A stretch of 64,000 bases of DNA, taken from assembly GCA_033182465.1 (NCBI GenBank), contig CP137330.1, positions 248,001-312,000 on the forward strand, written 5' to 3'. This DNA comes from Sanghuangporus weigelae (Eukaryota > Basidiomycota > Agaricomycetes > Hymenochaetales > Hymenochaetaceae). Below, piece by piece: positions 5,041 to 37,229 of this stretch; the stretch's first letter is position 1; every line of letters starts with the position of its first letter. The translations under genes and the position numbers were made by a program. A model generated the notes under the pieces. It ran no database searches and was not told the origin of the DNA. It saw only the letters and a list, made by a program, of their open reading frames with translations.

Positions 5041-5802
5041 CTACTGTTTTTCATATGTATTGTCACTCGCGACTTCTGTGATTTTTGTCACACAGAACAC
5101 CTCAAAATATAAAAATCACCATATCTCACTCAATTCTCGACCGTTTTGCATAATCTAAGTTTCGAAATTCATAGTTTTAAAATATGTTTCAAATCTAACA
5201 AGGATGAAGAGAAATGAGCAAAGAATGAGTGAGATATGTCGTAAAAGGTCGGTTTTAGACACATCTTTCATGTGCAGTTTTTCCTGCCCTCATCCCTGCT
5301 TCTACAGTCCTATAAGCAAGTCCAAAATGATATGATTATTTTATTTTAAGTTTACAGGCTGACTTTGAGCTCTATTCTGTGTTGTATCTGCTGGTTTGAT
5401 GCATGTCTGGGCTGAGCTCAAACCTACCTTTTCTCAAGGACCCCCAGACCTCAAAATAAATTTATTCTTAGGAAATCTGATGTCTTCAAATTCATATTAT
5501 ACCAATAGCATCACTTTGGTGCAGTCTAGGTTGTTGTAGCACCCAGTCTGAGGGCAGGAAAAACTGCACATGAAGGAAGTGTCTAAAATCGACCTTTTAC
5601 GACATATCTCACTCGTTCTTTGCTCATTTCTCTTCATCCTTGTTAGAGTTTGAAACATATCTTAAAACTATGAATTTCGAAACTTAGATCATGCAGAACG
5701 GTCAAGAATTGAGTGAGATATGGTGATTTTTATATTTTGAGGTGTTCTGTGTGACAAAAATCACAGAAGTCGCGAGTGACAATACATATGAAAAAGGCAG
5801 TA
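5041..5802. repeat. Foldback unit 1 (imperfect inverted repeat, 250-bp arms)
   Basis: The left arm (about 5041-5292) reappears as its reverse complement at about 5550-5802 with scattered differences; the spacer is about 257 bp and AT-rich. The arms contain the line CACTCGCGACTTCTGTGATT and its mirror. The unit has no coding frame. Its spacer resembles inner parts of unit 2 (both contain AGTTTACAGG, an AAAATGATA..ATGATTAT run and TTTGA.GCATG.CTG in the same order), so units 1 and 2 look like diverged members of one non-coding foldback (MITE-like) family, with part of one inner arm missing in unit 1. Confidence 0.85.
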
Positions 5803-5836: not shown

Positions 5837-6813
5837 AGAGACTCAAAACACAAATAATTTCGTATCTCACCCAACACTCAACGGTTTCACATCTTCTAAG
5901 CTGCCAAATTTATTTTTTCGAAAGGGCTTTCATTTAGAAACAAAAATCGAGAAAATAGAGTAAACACTGACCCAAAAATGGCGAAAATATGGTTTTTTGC
6001 CTCTTCTTTGCATGTGCATTTTTTTCTGTGATCCCTGCTGATCCAGAACTTCCCCAAAGCTGTCAAAAATGATAATATGATTATAACATGAGTTTACAGG
6101 TTAAATTTGAGTTGAATTGTGCACCAGAACATACTGCTTTGAGGCATGCCTGAATCACTCAAAACTCATCATTTCCCCCAGCCTCCCAAGCTCCAGGAAA
6201 AAATCTTACAGGCCAGATTCATGCATGTAAATTCATTTCAGATATAATAGACTAGGTTTGTATATTAGCTAGGGCCTCAGCATCCACTGGTGAGCTGGGC
6301 TGAGCAAGAGGTTCTGGTCATATGCACCATTCTAGACAGCATCTCCCCAGCTCACCAGTGGATGCTGAGGACCTAGCTAGCACATAAACCTAGTCTATTA
6401 TATCTAAAATGAATTTACATGCATGAATCTGGCCTGTAAGAATTTTTCCTGGAGCCTGGGAGGCTAGGGGGAAATGATGAGTTTTGAGTGATTTAGGCGT
6501 GGCTCAAAGCAGCACATTCTGGTACACAATTCAACTCAAACTCAGTCTGTAAATTCATTTTATAATCATATTATCATTCTGGATAGCTTTGGGGAGGTGC
6601 TGGACCAGTAGGGAGCACAGAAAAAAATGCACATGCATGTAAGACGCAAAAAAAATGATATTTTCGCCATTTTGGGGTCATTTTTTGCTTTATTTTCTCA
6701 ATCATTTTTCCTTAATGAAATCCCTTTCGAAAAGATGAATTTAGCAACTTAGATGATGTGAAACCATTAAGATTTGGGTGAGATATGATTTTATCTGTGT
6801 TTTGAGGCTCTCA
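5837..6813. repeat. Foldback unit 2 (imperfect inverted repeat, 465-bp arms)
   Basis: The left arm (5837-6299) and right arm (6346-6813) are reverse complements over almost their whole length around a spacer of only about 46 bp; the outer ends read GAGACTCAAAACACA and TGTGTTTTGAGGCTC. The unit is non-coding and AT-rich. The arms have drifted by substitutions and small indels, so it is a real old structure and not a copied read. It starts 34 bp after unit 1 and ends 3 bp before the large palindrome. Confidence 0.9.
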
Positions 6814-7480
6814 TGATGTTAGGGAGTAGGCCCGGGGTTACACCGGTTCGATCCTTTTGCCTAAGCAGCGGCGTGTTGTGCAGAGGTGATCTTATCTACC
6901 CACGTCTGGCTGTACCACGTGGTCCCTTACTACTCTTCCTAGTCGCGGTCCGAGTTATGGATGCTTTCAGATATGAGGTAATAGTAAAGCAGATTGAGAT
7001 TTCCAAGAGGCGTGATAGTACAAAGCACACAGTAATAGCTCGCTGTAGGGCAAGCTTTACACCAGTGTGTTAAGAGGATCGAAAGATGGGGAAATGAGGG
7101 CCTAATCCTACAGCTATTTATGCTCCCAGATATTCCATTTTCTATCCTATTTCTTACTCATCCTGTCTCCACTTTACTCCACTTTTCTCCACCATTACAT
7201 CTGTTCCTTTGTCATCCTGCTGCGCTTCGCTCCACTTTGCTCCAATCTTTGTAAGGTCGTCTCCACTATGACAGAATTCTGTGGAGTTGCTGACTGAGAC
7301 AATAGAGGTGGTGCTTCGATATGGAATGCCCCACTGTCAGTACTCCATCACGATGTCATTGCTGTCATTGAGTGGCATCTTTGCTCTTGGAGCGATGTAG
7401 GCTGCTCGGTATGTGATTCTTCGGAATTCATCTCGAGGTCCAGTGAGGGTAAGCATAACTCGCACGTCAGTGTTAAGGTG

Positions 7481-7978
7481 TCAGGTTGGTGTAGAGTATG
7501 GTCCAAGGCATATCATGAACTGCATAAGCTCTGCTGGCGGGTTCTGCTGGGTTCTGGTGACTAGCCATGCTTTGCCTTCGTATCGTATATCTCGAATGTA
7601 GTGCCATATCCTTCGTTGTATAAGGAGTTGTAATTGCTTGGTCTCCAGGTTCGCATCTCTTGGTAAATAAAGGTTTGCCTGTATCGTGGATGCTGGACAT
7701 GGTGTGTGCAACTCTGGTCTATACCATCCAATCATTCTCCAAGTTATCGGGTTCGCAGTTCGAGGGGTTCGTGTTGTGATCGTGAGCTCCTCTCGTTTCT
7801 TGAGTACTACTGGGTTTGGTGGATTGGAATGCATTGTATCCTGAAGGTGTCGCTCGGTTTCAATGTGACAGTCACGTGTACCAACTGTTGCCGTGCATAC
7901 TATGTAGTATACTTCATAAAGGACTATGTAAACTCGTGCACAGACTTGACAGTGCTGAAATGCCAGTGATGTCTCCAT
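7481..7978 (-). CDS. Unrecognised ORF on left arm of palindrome
   Basis: A 165-residue open frame starts with ATG at 7978 and is read outward from the palindrome centre. It is the mirror copy of the 213-residue ORF on the right arm and nearly identical to it where they overlap (METSLAFQHCQVCARVY start; PNPVVLKKREELTITTRTPR core), but shorter. No known domain is recognised. Two cysteines and two histidines near the start (HCQVC ... CHIETERH) could be a small metal site, which is inference. It belongs to the repeat and is probably not a host gene. Confidence 0.35.
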   Translation of the reverse strand: METSLAFQHCQVCARVYIVLYEVYYIVCTATVGTRDCHIETERHLQDTMHSNPPNPVVLKKREELTITTRTPRTANPITWRMIGWYRPELHTPCPASTIQANLYLPRDANLETKQLQLLIQRRIWHYIRDIRYEGKAWLVTRTQQNPPAELMQFMICLGPYSTPT

Positions 7979-8229
7979 ACACCTTATTAGCCTTTAGCCT
8001 TTTAGCATTTAGGCTTTAGTAGTTGTGCTTCTAGACTTCTAAGAAGTTTGATTGCTTCTTTTGATCGAGGTCGCTCTGGTTGCTTGGTCGGCGGCGTTAG
8101 AGTGGTAGTCTGCGGTAATAGGCAGTCGGCGGTGTTAGCTGTTAGCGGGATTACGTATTCGCTTTGGTGCTTCTAGCACTCGGGTGGTAACGGGTTACTG
8201 TTGCCTAGGCCGCTCGATCGCTTGGGCCC

Positions 8230-8328
8230 GTGATAGCTAGCTTGGTTACTGGTCGCGTTTGGAGAGCTGATCATGTAGATCTGTTGATCGCGTCGATCCT
8301 GATGCGAGATTTTGAGCGGATCCTTTCA
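8230..8328 (+). repeat. Spacer of palindrome, direct repeat copy 1
   Basis: The 99-bp centre of the palindrome (starting GTGATAGCTAGCTTGG and ending GGATCCTTTCA) occurs a second time, in the same orientation and with equal length, just outside the right arm at 9703-9801. The outer copy has lost several CpG dinucleotides relative to this one. Confidence 0.9.
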
Positions 8329-8581
8329 CACAGGCCCAAGCGATCGAGCGGCCTAGGCAACAGTAACCCATTACCACCCGAGCGCTAGAAGCACCAAAGC
8401 GGATACGTAATCCCGCTAACAGCTAACACCACCGACCGCCTATTACCACGGACTACCACTCTAACACCGCCGACCAAGCAACCAGAGTGACCTCGATCAA
8501 AGAAGCGATCAAACTTCTTAGAAGTCCGGAAGCACAACTACTAAAGCCTAAACGCTAAAAGGCTAAAGGCTAATAAGGTGT

Positions 8582-9223
8582 ATGGAGACATCACTGGCAT
8601 TTCAGCACTGTCAAGTCTGTGCACGAGTTTACATGGTCCTTTATGAAGTATACTATTTAGTATGCAAGGCAACAGTTGGTACACGTGACTGTCACATCGA
8701 AACCGAGCGACACCTTCAAGATACAATGCATTCCAATCCACCAAACCCAGTAGTACTCAAGAAACGAGAGGAACTCACGATCACAACTCGAACCCCTCGA
8801 ACTGCAAACCCGATAACCTGGAGAATGATTGGATGGTATAGACCAGAGTTGCACACACCATGTCCAGCATCCACGATACAGGCAAACCTTTATTTACCAA
8901 GAGATGCGAACCTGAAGACCAAGCAATTACAACTCCTTATACAACGAAGGATATGGCATTACATTCGAGACATACGATATGAAGGCAAAGTATGGCTAGT
9001 CACCAGAACCCAGCAGAACCCGCTAGCAGAGCTTATGCAGTTCATGATATGCCTTGGACCATACTCGACACCGACCCGACACCTTAACACTGACGTGCGA
9101 GTTATGCTTACACTCACTGGACCTCGAGATGAATTCCGAAGAATCACATACCGAGCAGCCTACATCGCTCCAAGAGCAAAGATGCCACTCAATGAGGGCA
9201 ATGACATCATTATGGAGTACTGA
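8582..9223 (+). CDS. Unrecognised ORF on right arm of palindrome
   Basis: A 213-residue uninterrupted frame starts with ATG at 8582 and ends at 9223. It begins METSLAFQHCQVCARVYMV, has a basic, threonine-rich middle (KKREELTITTRTPRTANP) and tryptophan/arginine-rich stretches (ITWRMIGWYRPE, IQRRIWHYIRDIRYEGK). No domain is recognised. The frame is repeated on the opposite arm, so two transcripts leaving the centre would share long complementary stretches. It may encode a protein of a non-autonomous element or may simply be an open stretch kept by chance. Confidence 0.4.
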   Translation: METSLAFQHCQVCARVYMVLYEVYYLVCKATVGTRDCHIETERHLQDTMHSNPPNPVVLKKREELTITTRTPRTANPITWRMIGWYRPELHTPCPASTIQANLYLPRDANLKTKQLQLLIQRRIWHYIRDIRYEGKVWLVTRTQQNPLAELMQFMICLGPYSTPTRHLNTDVRVMLTLTGPRDEFRRITYRAAYIAPRAKMPLNEGNDIIMEY

Positions 9224-9702
9224 CAGTGGAGCATTTCATATCGGAGCACCACCTCTATTGTCTCAGTCAGCAACTCCACAGAATACTGTCATAGTGGAGA
9301 CGATCTTACAAAGAGTGGAGAAAAGTGGAGTAAAGTGGAGTAAAGTGGAAACAGGATGAGTAAGAAATAGGATAGAAAATGGAATATCTGGGAGCATAAA
9401 TAGCTGTAGGATTAGGCCCTCATTTCCCCATCTTTCGATCCTCTTAACACACTGGTGTAAAGCTTGCCCTACAGCGAGCTATTACTGTGTGCTTTGTACT
9501 ATCATGCCTCTTGGAAATCCCAATCTGCTTTACTATCACCTCGTATCTGAAAGCATCCATAACTCAGACCGCGACTAGGAAGGCTAGTAAGGGACCGCAT
9601 GGTACAGCCAGATGTGGGTAGATAAGATCACCTCTGCACAACACACCACTGCTTAGGCAAAAGGATCGAACCAGTGTAACTCCAGGCCTACTCCCTAACA
9701 CT

Positions 9703-9801
9703 GTGATAGCTGGCTTGGTTACTGGTTGCATTTGGAAAGCTGATTGTGTAGATCTGCTGATTGTGTCAATCCTGATGCGAGATTTTGAGTGGATCCTTTC
9801 A
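9703..9801 (+). repeat. Direct repeat copy 2 of the palindrome spacer
   Basis: This 99-bp segment matches the palindrome centre (8230-8328) without gaps and begins 2 bp beyond the right terminus. The differences are mostly transitions at CpG sites, which fits methylation-driven decay. It shows that the DNA trapped inside the palindrome is a copy of the DNA flanking it. Confidence 0.9.
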
Positions 9802-10039
9802 GAATATTGCTATCATATGCTCATATGTTATGTATCCTGGGCTAGGCTTTTCTACCCCATCTTGTATAATGTATCCTGGGAATATCCTGTGTGTTGCTCA
9901 TATGTCGAAGTTCATTTGTAATACTTCGGTCATCAGGATCAATGTAATTATTGTACAGTAAATGTCCCATCTGATTTGATGTGCTTGTTGACATTTCTCA
10001 CAGTCCTTTACTTCTGGCCATTCACTGGCTCGTCCTTGG

Positions 10040-10453
10040 TTAACTATTCTCTTTGTCATGGCTTTGAGCATTCTTGATGAGCGTGTATACATCTTGCTTG
10101 TATGCTGTCACGTGCATTCTATAATGCTGACTAAAGCAATTTCTAACAAATACCAATCGTTCCACGAAATTCTTCATGAGCCATTCTGAGAGTACCCAGC
10201 TTCGTTGGTATGCCAAGTAACAATTGGCACATACCAATCCTTCGACCAATCCTTCGTGGATAAACCTTCTAGTCGCACCATGTTGATAGTATCTTCGTTG
10301 CAGAAGTTCTGTATACCTTGCGACATTCCTGTCTTTCATAATTGCCAGACTGCGTTCTGGTGGAGGAGTGTGGCCAATATGCATATTAGTTAGTCCTAAC
10401 CGCAAATCGCTTGAGTCCTCCGTGTCTTCTTCAGACGATCCGTGATTCACCAC
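10040..10453 (-). CDS. Unrecognised ORF with cysteine pairs, probably repeat-derived
   Basis: A 137-residue frame with no in-frame ATG at its beginning (it opens at GTG) reads MVNHGSSEEDTEDSSDLRLG and later contains EGLVCANCYLAYQRSW. Directly downstream, in another frame on the same strand, are the words KDCEKCQQAHQIRW. CxxC pairs in an arginine- and glutamine-rich context recall proteins of mobile elements, but no domain can be named. It sits next to the palindrome and its duplicated spacer and may be part of a larger degraded element. Confidence that it is expressed is low. Confidence 0.25.
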   Translation of the reverse strand: MVNHGSSEEDTEDSSDLRLGLTNMHIGHTPPPERSLAIMKDRNVARYTELLQRRYYQHGATRRFIHEGLVEGLVCANCYLAYQRSWVLSEWLMKNFVERLVFVRNCFSQHYRMHVTAYKQDVYTLIKNAQSHDKENS

Positions 10454-11806
10454 TCATGAATCACCACCACTATTCTGCCTGAGCAACCTTTCAAAATAGT
10501 CTTGATTTGGCATCATAATTCAGTGTGTAAATTGTCTTAGCCCACGCCACATTAGTCAACCACAATTTTCATAACACTTAAGATATGAAATAATGCTTTT
10601 CATGATATTCAAGCAAGTCTATGCTGAGTTTCAAGCACCCATGGAATCTATAAGAAATGACTCTTACTAATAATGGTTAACTAAGCATAAAATTACCATA
10701 TATAGGCTGTATTAGTCATTCGGACTTCTTCAAAAAATCCAGAGGTCAAAATTTCCAAAATTTCTGAAACTTCGCCAGAATGATGGAAAATGAATTCTGA
10801 GCCATTTGGTACAAAAAAACTTGTTTCCTTAATTGGTCGGCCAAATCTTAGTATTTTGGAAAATTAAAAACATATATCTGTAGGCATCTACAATCCAAAG
10901 ACATGTATGCAAAGCAAATGTATGCTTGTGAGGTGTGGGAGGCAGAATTAAAGAGTTGTGTTGTTGTGCCAAATGAGGAAGGTCAGGGTCGCGCGATGCA
11001 CATCACAGCCAGTCGAGTTTATACTTTCCCTACCTTAGCTGTAATCTTTTATGCACGAGCCGTCGGTTCAAGGGATCGAATGCAATAGGAAACCTTAAAA
11101 TATCCATCATCACTGGATATTTCACTATCTTAGGTAAGAACGACAAATTTTCTTTCCCTAAAGCATATGGCGTGGCACACATGCGTCTCGGAGAAAGGGA
11201 TACACTGATAGGAAATGTCTGGATAGCGCCAACTACACCAATGAACCTTTTCCTCTTGCACTAAAATGGCTCTTGGTGTTCTCGTGTCCCGAGAAACTGT
11301 AGAAGGACTTGTGGCTTCGTAATTGTGATGCCGACCATGCGGAGTCGCAGCGATACTCTGTCGAATTCCGCGTATGCGTGTCAGGAATCCGTTGAAGCTG
11401 CGGGGAGTACTCTGTCCAATTAATATAAGCCCTCGGCTGGAGAGCATGGAATAACAGATATTCAGGACTTATGAAAGAAAAAGGTAACTCTATCACAATA
11501 CTAGCATTCACGGTAAGTATGTAAAGTTTGTTAGAGACGCAGAAACAAGATATTTGACGTTTGATAGCGTATCATGATGAAAATGCAACCGTAACTTCCT
11601 GATCCGATCGTAATAAAAACCATTGTACTTAAAGCGCATACAAACAAGGTCGATGGGGACGGCTATTGTACACTCTATATAATAGATGAAAAAGTAGGTA
11701 AAAATGACGGCACAGCAAGAGTCTAAGAGGCAGATGGGAATGATAGCTACAGACTGGATAATGAAGAAATTGGCCCCCAGTAAACGCGTCCACAAGACAG
11801 CCCAGC
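10454..11806. other. Intergenic, AT-rich, no gene recognised
   Basis: The sequence is AT-rich to about 10,900 and then mixed. Short frames at 10,900-11,090 and 11,130-11,800 have no motif. It contains the 3' flank of the FAD monooxygenase. Confidence 0.45.
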
Positions 11807-31815: not shown

Positions 31816-32893
31816 ATGTCTGGATACAGGAACTTCGCAGTCTCCGGTGCCGGAACCATCGGCAAGCTCGTTGTCGCGGAACTCGTAAAGAAGAAGGATG
31901 AGGGAGCGATAGCCTCAGTGACTATCCTGACGCGCTCTGTATGTGTCGCCATCGATTTGTTCAGGTTTTTTGACGTCAGATTGCCGCGCTTCAGCTGGAT
32001 GGCCACAAAGATCTCGTGGACAAAGGCGTTAAAGTTGTAGCTGTCGATTACACTTCTCCGTCGTCGTTGGAGTCCGCTCTGTCAGATATCGATGTGCTCA
32101 TCTCTACCCTGGGTCTACTTGGAATCGGACACCAGACTGCGCTTGCCACGAGTGCTAAAGCTGCAGGCGTCAAGCTCTTTGTGCCATCTGATTTCGGCAG
32201 CGATCCGCACGGTCAGACTCAAAACCCGATATTCGCACAGAAGGTGGCTATCCAGCAAAAGCTGAAGGAGCTGAGTCTTCCGTATGCCACTTTCTACACT
32301 GGACTGTTCACCGAGAAAGTCCTAGTATCGTACGTCGACGTAGTGCCGTTAGGCTCAGGAATTCACTGATGATCTGTTTCTTTCACTGGTTGCTAGTAAT
32401 TACGCAGCGGCATTAGGATTGAACTTTGCGACAGGGGAATTCTCCATCCCAGGTTCTGGGACTGCTGATATATCCTGGACAACAGCCGGAGATGCAGCTC
32501 AGTTCGTTGTGTATGCATTGGCTGCTCTTCCTCGTGAGAAGATCGAGTGGCGTATATTCCGCATTGAAGGCGATCGTCTCGTACGTAGCACATATCAGTT
32601 GCTCTTCATCATACAATGCTCAACTCAGTCCGCTGCTATCTCAGAGTTTCGATGAAATCGCCTCGGTTTGGGAGAAACACAGTGGCAATGCTTCCACCGT
32701 TTCGCACCGCCCTCGCGTCACTTTCGAAGAGGCCGTGCAGAAGAATCCGATGGACTTTATTTCCCTGTTCATATTGGCGTTGGATGACGGACTTCTGACT
32801 GTCGGGAATCCGGGTGACCTGTCGAATTCCGATTACCCGGGTTGGAAATCAAAGAAAGTTATCGACGTCCTTTCCGAACTTTATGCCAACTGA
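31816..32893 (+). CDS. NmrA-like NAD(P)-binding oxidoreductase, copy B (intact)
   Basis: Four exons (31816-31938, 31995-32329, 32397-32580, 32645-32893) give 891 nt, 296 residues, near the family's usual 300. The dinucleotide motif is FAVSGAGTIGKLVVAEL; then come AVDYTSPSSLESALSDIDVL, KAAGVKLFVPSDFGSD, GEFSIPGSGTADISWT and the C-terminal WKSKKVIDVLSELYAN. Relatives are isoflavone/pinoresinol-type reductases or redox-sensing NmrA proteins; the catalytic substrate cannot be set, and the lysine of true phenylpropanoid reductases was not confirmed. It is the best-preserved of the three paralogues here (A 30118, C 36188). Confidence 0.9.
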
Positions 32894-36187: not shown

Positions 36188-37229
36188 ATGTCCGCATACA
36201 AGCAATTCGCAGTCGCCGGAGCTGGCTCGATTGGCAGAGTTATCGTTGAAGAACTCGTAAAAAAGAAAGATGAAGGGAAATTTTCAAGGCTAGAACGGAA
36301 CGTACTTATTCTACGAGTTCTGGTCTAGTCGGGTTGGTGTGAAGATCTCGTTTCGAAAGGCGTGGAATTTATTCTAGTCGACTATAAATCGCCTTCATCA
36401 CTCGAGGCAGCTCTGATCGGAGCTGATGTAGTGATTTCAACTTTAAGCCTCCTCAGCCTCATCCACCAAAATGCTCTCGCAACGTATTCCAAAGCGGCCG
36501 GCGTCAAGCTCTTTGTGCCATCGCAGTTTGATTGTGACCCATGCGGGAAGAGCGAGATGCTACTACTCAAACACAGAGAGGTATTTCGTAGAAATTTGAA
36601 GGAGATTGGACTATCATACGCTGTTTTCTGTACAGGGCTACTCATAGACAAGGTCTTTGCACCGTACGTCCCTCTTCTCGCAATGCGTTGGCGACTGCTG
36701 ACTTCGCCTTCGGTACTGACCCGGTAGCACCTTTGCTGCGGCACTGGGGTTGGATTTCTCAAGCGGAGAGTTCTCCATTCCTGTATCTGGCACTGCGCCC
36801 ATCTCGTGGACTACAACGGAAGAAGTCGCACAGTTCATAGCACATGCTCTGACAATATTTCCTCGTGAGAAGATCGAGTGGCGCACTTTTCGCATCGAAG
36901 GGGAACAAATCGTTAGTTTCTTTGTCCTTCTCTCCTGTTGCGAGCTGACAAGGAATCGTCCTCCTTCTCTTTGACGGCAGAATCTCAACGAGATCGTTGC
37001 TCTGTGGGAGAAGCGATTCCGAAGAACAGCTTTGGTCACCCATCGTCCACGAGCAGTAATCAAGACAGCGGTGAAACTGGATGCGACAGACTTCCTATCT
37101 AGCTTCATTCTCGACCTGGACGCGGGACACATGGCCGTAGGCGATCCAGAAGAGGTTTCAGATCGAGAATTCCCAAGATGGAGACCGAAAAGAGTTATAG
37201 ATGTTTTGGACGATCTTTATGAAGATTGA
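36188..37229 (+). CDS. NmrA-like oxidoreductase, copy C (doubtful first splice)
   Basis: This is the third NmrA paralogue. Its ATG at 36188 gives FAVAGAGSIGRVIVEELVKK, and the rest is well kept: LVDYKSPSSLEAALIGADVV, KAAGVKLFVPSQFDCD, GEFSIPVSGTAPISWTTT, PREKIEWRTFRIEGEQI and the complete C-terminus RWRPKRVIDVLDDLYED. Introns 2 and 3 are normal. The first intron is the problem: after KKKDEGKF the sequence diverges from copies A and B, and the only GT...AG pair that restores the frame (about 36310-36336) would be a 27-nt intron, too short for this genome. Either exon 1 is damaged and the copy is a pseudogene, or an unusual splice is used. Confidence 0.65.

Follow-up and report, generated by a model that had tools for sequence, protein, structure and literature searches.

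Fungal chromoviruses comprise clades that include MarY1, Laccy1, and Tcn1 and range in length from approximately 4.4 to more than 13 kb, according to the excerpts of the literature used here, in which an additional ORF of unknown function is mentioned for some element in a figure legend (PMC2864245). The genes located in long terminal repeats (LTRs) that are described in the portion of the literature covered belong to vertebrate retroviruses. These genes, sag and nef, are placed in the 5′ third of the LTR, and the LTR of MMTV is 1,300 nt long (excerpts of PMC2664473). The same excerpts describe LTR ORFs of HML endogenous retroviruses, which are mostly antisense and have no start methionine (PMC2664473). 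A phrase search of the available text of a review of plant LTR retrotransposons (PMC7264820) matched no mention of an ORF within an LTR, and no fungal or Ty3/gypsy element whose LTR carries a conserved ORF was found in the excerpts of open-licence PMC literature covered.

The window analysed here is a 64,000-nucleotide stretch of the Sanghuangporus weigelae genome (C13:248001-312000; genome searched, 33,870,148 bases in 13 contigs). It contains a palindrome, both arms of which are LTRs from a Sanghuangporus family of Ty3/gypsy chromoviruses.

The palindrome and its element

The segment 6817-9700 matches its own reverse complement with 90.9% identity over 2,938 columns in a BLASTN comparison of the window with itself, and a repeat finder recovered the same arms in pieces. 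The self-pairing is not explained by chance and agrees with the initial annotation, which described a 2.9-kb palindrome with one frame on both arms. The frame METSLAFQHCQVCARVY (METSLAFQHC...) is present on each arm and is directed outward. The arms, described initially as approximately 1.4 kb long, are mirror images of unequal extent: a full LTR makes up the left arm, whereas the right arm lacks the first 96 bp of the unit, which are found at 9706-9801 in the opposite orientation (Table 1). The left arm is 96.2-96.6% identical to the full-length LTRs examined, and the right arm is 92.5% identical to the left over 1,416 columns, 44 of which are gap columns. The numerous substitutions reported between the arms are present (62 in 1,372 aligned bases), but the many small indels were an overstatement, as there are only two gap runs totalling the 44 columns. 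The arms are too different for a simple assembly copy, as had been claimed. Their divergence was also taken as a sign of an old structure; the divergence is real, but it provides no simple date for the palindrome, because 24 differences from the young copy L046 are common to both arms. Since nine of these 24 occur in another LTR examined, much of the divergence from young copies appears to be older than the palindrome.

Table 1. Features of the palindromic locus (positions in the window).
Feature	Position	Strand	Description
Left arm	6817-8328	-	Complete 1,512-bp LTR; sense strand 8328 -> 6817, TGAAAGG...CCCTAACA
Right arm	8329-9700	+	LTR positions 97-1512, sense orientation; terminates with CCCTAACA at 9700
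96-bp spacer	8233-8328	-	LTR positions 96 -> 1 of younger LTR; presumably flipped relative to simple nesting
Target-site duplication, copy 1	8329-8333	+	CACAG; adjoins LTR terminus
Target-site duplication, copy 2	9701-9705	-	CTGTG on + strand, CACAG on - strand
Older LTR, 5′ remnant	9701-9801	-	Sense positions 101 -> 1; includes one target-duplication copy
U3 ORF, right arm	8582-9223	+	213 codons; intact
U3 ORF, left arm	7978 -> 7481	-	Stop at codon 166
TATA-like CATAAATAG	9395-9403	+	Downstream of U3 ORF; presumed part of LTR promoter, by motif only

The initial annotation had proposed to locate the element ends by a genome search; the unit defined in this way is a 1,512-bp LTR with 5-bp target duplications at most of the LTR pairs read. 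When the whole palindrome was used for the search, the matches consisted of a unit of approximately 1,512 bp, and the 2.9-kb whole was seen only once (best 40 of 421 candidates scored). With up to one mismatch allowed, the genome contains the 16-base LTR end motif at 371 places, compared to two places for the reversed control. A same-strand partner is located 10.6-10.9 kb away for 116 of the 150 scored ORF copies, and the commonest spacings between ORF copies are 10,779 and 10,778 bp. The 5-bp flanks are identical in eight of the nine LTR pairs read, the exception being the pair L036/L037. The family thus has paired direct LTRs with TG..CA ends and a short target duplication of fixed length, as is typical of LTR retrotransposons. 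It also has the PBS-like sequence TTGGATCGAAAG after the 5′ LTR, found by eye, and a AGGGGGGG tract before the 3′ LTR, with the polypurine tract AGGGGGGGTG likewise identified by eye.

The internal region of the copy L010 encodes a gag of 362 residues with a CCHC knuckle and a pol of 1,492 residues. The CCHC knuckle, RT, RNase H, integrase, SH3, and chromodomain of L010 are above the Pfam cut-offs, and the matches to the gag and protease models fall slightly short of them. The domains of the pol frame, with the protease below the cut-off, follow the order PR-RT-RH-INT of Ty3/gypsy elements, and the C-terminal chromodomain on the integrase (PF00385, E 3.9e-10, residues 1422-1470 of 1492) assigns the element to the chromoviruses. 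The strand of gag and pol in L010 determines the sense direction of the LTR, TGAAAGG...CCCTAACA, and the full element is approximately 12.3 kb long. The window LTRs adjoin neither PBS nor PPT sequence; both arms are solo LTRs. The initial annotation had seen no recognised element class in the palindrome and had named beforehand, as the finding that would contradict it, membership of the arm in a well-known transposon family whose coding region does not include the ORF. The arms do belong to such a family, with gag, RT, RNase H, integrase, and chromodomain between its paired LTRs, and the ORF is outside gag-pol.

Two extra ORFs are present in L010. The first, of 344 residues (69-1103), overlaps gag and has weak matches of coiled-coil type; the second, of 358 residues (6880-7956), is located after pol. 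Neither ORF matches a family above the cut-off. Six proteins from four Sanghuangporus species are homologous to the 358-residue ORF. The annotation of S. weigelae tags this ORF as ACEPAI_3467 and the homologue of the U3 ORF as ACEPAI_3465, which suggests that the two genes are neighbours. At G000:C6:1181158-1215809, four LTRs in direct tandem, with a spacing of approximately 10,779 bp, are followed by a truncated LTR, and CGGAC is present at both outer ends. The four LTRs imply three internal regions with shared LTRs, one of which was read.

Origin of the palindrome

The reading that is considered the most probable (approximately 0.85) is that the palindrome consists of nested inverted solo LTRs, with CACAG duplicated at the insertion site and the spacer flipped, and that the frame common to both arms is an accessory gene from the U3 region of the element. 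The insertion of a younger element, in the opposite orientation, at positions 97-101 of an older LTR would have duplicated CACAG, and the inserted element would then have been reduced to a solo LTR. The younger LTR has CACAG at both ends, whereas the same site is CACGG in the left arm and CAAAG in 39 of the 39 LTRs compared (the 40 full-length LTRs with L028 left out due to an indel shift). The presence of CACAG at both junctions is therefore most simply explained by duplication of the sequence of the older LTR during integration. The remnant at 9701-9801 is 89% identical to the LTR end and differs from the young copy L046 at 10 of 99 bases, seven of the ten differences being C-to-T at CpG. 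The orientation of the 96-base spacer is the reverse of that expected from simple nesting of an oppositely oriented LTR, and its flipping would have required a crossover or gene conversion between the inverted pair of LTRs. The crossover point was sought using the changes private to each arm; it was not located, because the 25 private changes of the left arm and the 36 of the right are scattered along the arms. Self-nesting of this LTR occurs elsewhere in the genome, in the same orientation at L013 and L033 and in the opposite orientation at L030.

The outer flanks of the older LTR have no matching target duplication, which counts against this reading. The left flank is the cut end of a palindromic repeat, most other read copies of which continue CATGGCGAGAAAAG or nearly so. 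The right flank is inside a 347-bp repeat; five of the six other copies of this repeat have TCATGTGA upstream of that point, and in the sixth, L062, an LTR is positioned there. The unmatched flanks indicate that the older LTR either arose through recombination between elements or underwent a later rearrangement.

The order of the pieces (a complete LTR, an inverted piece, and a leftover end) could also result from direct tandem LTRs, in one of which the first 1,416 bases (TGTTAG...TTTCA orientation) became inverted with no nested insertion. However, such an inversion predicts no 5-bp duplication, whereas CACAG/CTGTG stands at both junctions, and it additionally requires that one breakpoint fell by chance exactly on the LTR terminus; this origin is thus unlikely. 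Long inverted repeats are hard to assemble, and two reads or haplotypes may be falsely joined, but the 62 substitutions separating the arms and the target duplication in its proper place make an assembly artefact highly improbable. The direct contact of the palindrome with two palindromic repeat families (5042-5802 and 5837-6811) might point to an independent fold-back or palindromic DNA transposon. This explanation is scarcely credible, because the 2.9-kb whole was seen once among the best 40 of 421 candidates and elsewhere the unit is the 1.5-kb LTR. The nested pair of inverted solo LTRs and their element class are of kinds that are already known, and the palindrome is ordinary transposon wreckage; the gene that it carries matters more.

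The window from approximately 5 to 11 kb is one nest of repeats. The sequence 5837-6811 is a near-palindromic dispersed repeat of approximately 1 kb, most matches of which are full length with 90-94% identity (best 40 of 214 candidates scored). Other copies read extend approximately 25 bp further on each side, and several end with TGATTTCACCACTTTTCTCGCCATG and its complement; the right end of the window copy is cut by the LTR. A second dispersed palindromic repeat, of 761 bp, is located at 5042-5802 (best 40 of 67 candidates scored); it starts with TACTGCC in six of the six other copies read and ends with GGCAGTA in five of the six. At C2:2982400-2984800 (L067), the 761-bp repeat is again near a copy of the ~1-kb palindrome, in reversed order. 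Three more dispersed repeats are positioned back to back at 9802-10148, 10150-10577, and 10577-11038. An open frame of 137 codons (10040-10453, minus strand) is located inside dispersed repeats, and profile comparison showed no relation of this frame to the U3 ORF. The window also contains a direct repeat of 170 bp with 70% identity (32404-32573 and 36735-36904).

The open reading frame in the LTR

The ORF is in the sense orientation and occupies positions 351-992 of the 1,512-bp LTR, and the TATA-like box is at position 1207 (sense LTR of L046). These positions place the ORF in U3, provided that the box marks the U3/R border, so that the LTR would contain a sense frame within U3, as do LTRs with genes of the sag/nef type. 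The 213-codon ORF is present in 40 of the 40 full-length LTRs examined, a set to which partial LTRs do not belong, and the frame is open in all 150 scored ORF copies (best 150 of 428 candidates); scoring was limited to the best candidates, so that both samples are biased to young copies. Each of the five remaining frames that span the ORF contains between 5 and 14 stops.

The best homologue of the ORF product is an S. weigelae protein with 98% identity. Two proteins from S. baumii and one from S. vaninii, 212-213 residues long, are 70-73% identical over their full length, with one 1-residue gap. All the homologues in NCBI are named only "hypothetical protein". A profile search with the alignment, which depends on shared five-residue words, retrieved the same four proteins from 998 candidates; like the first homologue search, it gave none from outside the genus. 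The absence of a recognised domain, stated in the initial annotation, agrees with the profile searches proposed there, since Pfam with the window ORF and NCBIfam with two homologues gave nothing. The structure prediction suggested at the same time was performed with AlphaFold for five sequences and gave a mean pLDDT of 46.7 and no usable fold. A sequence search of the PDB with the ORF protein gave seven matches, the best with an E of 0.26. Kinship of the ORF with gag or with the 358-residue ORF was considered and rejected, as profile comparison shows no relation. The conserved residues include H9, C10, C13, C37, C94, and C157, and it is conceivable from the sequence that the conserved histidine and cysteines bind metal.

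The pattern of substitutions in the U3 ORF is that of a gene under purifying selection. The haplotype set contained 67 frames, 17 of them distinct, with nine partial or gapped matches skipped and some copies present in two overlapping loci; after removal of both arms of the window palindrome and of one L033 copy that contains a stop, 14 intact haplotypes remained. The 14 haplotypes differ at 41 sites, of which 5, 3, and 33 are at codon positions 1, 2, and 3, respectively. Although the counts are small, 34 of the 43 changes are silent and nine alter an amino acid, compared to 30.3 (sd 3.0) altering changes expected (ratio 0.11), and none of 5,000 simulations produced as few as nine. The pairwise ratios from three lineages, with three comparisons each, are similar in the 213-residue ORF (0.09-0.14), gag (0.04-0.15), and pol (0.08-0.18). 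The ratios for the 358- and 344-residue ORFs, from one comparison each, are 0.025 and 0.37, with the L090 copy of the former (1-base gap) and the L091 copy of the latter (9 gap columns) left out.

The lack of a domain and of a confident fold would also be expected if the 213-residue frame were open by chance and kept by a constraint on the DNA of U3, with no gene present. This is very unlikely, because the changes are concentrated at third codon positions and the proportions are reversed in sense frames +1 and +2 (5 silent, 38 altering). The antisense frame -1, with 33 silent and 10 altering changes, gives a count similar to that of the ORF, since their wobble positions coincide, yet every antisense frame holds at least five stops. 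Furthermore, in comparisons between subfamilies, L081, L082, L089, and L009 show greater divergence in the DNA of the ORF than in either LTR flank, and in L079 the ORF is intermediate; in the near-identical L030 and L033, the ORF diverges less than the flanks. The higher divergence of the ORF between subfamilies shows that there is no general conservation of the DNA and that the signal is codon-specific.

The best-supported reading of the ORF is that it encodes an accessory protein that is selected together with the element and would function in its replication. The genomic RNA would carry the U3 frame at its 3′ end, in the 3′ LTR, and each round of reverse transcription would copy the frame into both LTRs. 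It is predicted to be expressed from the 3′ LTR through a subgenomic or spliced RNA. Candidate roles of the protein are RNA handling, regulation, and escape from silencing, with regulation or export of the RNA of the element itself as the first guess. It is possible, but doubtful, that the genus-restricted U3 gene gains two copies per retrotransposition and persists as a complete gene in each solo LTR, so that the LTRs, hundreds of which are present in the genome, form a dispersed gene family that acts in trans on the element or its host.

Comparison with known LTR genes

The element shares with the fungal Ty3/gypsy chromoviruses, as described in the excerpts used, the organization LTR-gag-pol (PR, RT, RH, INT, chromodomain)-LTR, the TG..CA ends, and the 5-bp duplication, and its length of approximately 12.3 kb is within their size range (PMC2864245). 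Unlike the fungal chromoviruses described in these excerpts, it has a 1.5-kb LTR with a selected U3 gene and, in addition, the 344- and 358-residue ORFs. Additional ORFs of plant LTR retrotransposons are similarly conserved in their elements and of unknown function, but those covered in the available text occupy the internal region, in most cases the stretch from pol to the 3′ LTR (PMC7264820). According to the portion of the S. weigelae assembly paper used here, TE-containing genes were removed before the final annotation (PMC10803629). Together with the naming of homologues as hypothetical proteins, this indicates that genes such as the U3 ORF are easily overlooked. The many near-identical copies in a mushroom genome provide a test case for the role of such a gene.

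MMTV sag and lentiviral nef resemble the ORF described here in being sense frames that precede the promoter of a long LTR and are copied to both LTRs (excerpts of PMC2664473 and PMC12548423). In contrast to their described placement, the frame at 351-992 of 1,512 starts in the first third of the LTR and continues through its middle, and the host is a fungus and the element Ty3/gypsy. The likeness to sag and nef is best regarded as one of layout, not of descent. A codon-selected U3 gene in a fungal chromovirus suggests that the solution of carrying a gene in the LTR, which in the literature covered is that of vertebrate retroviruses, also arose outside them.
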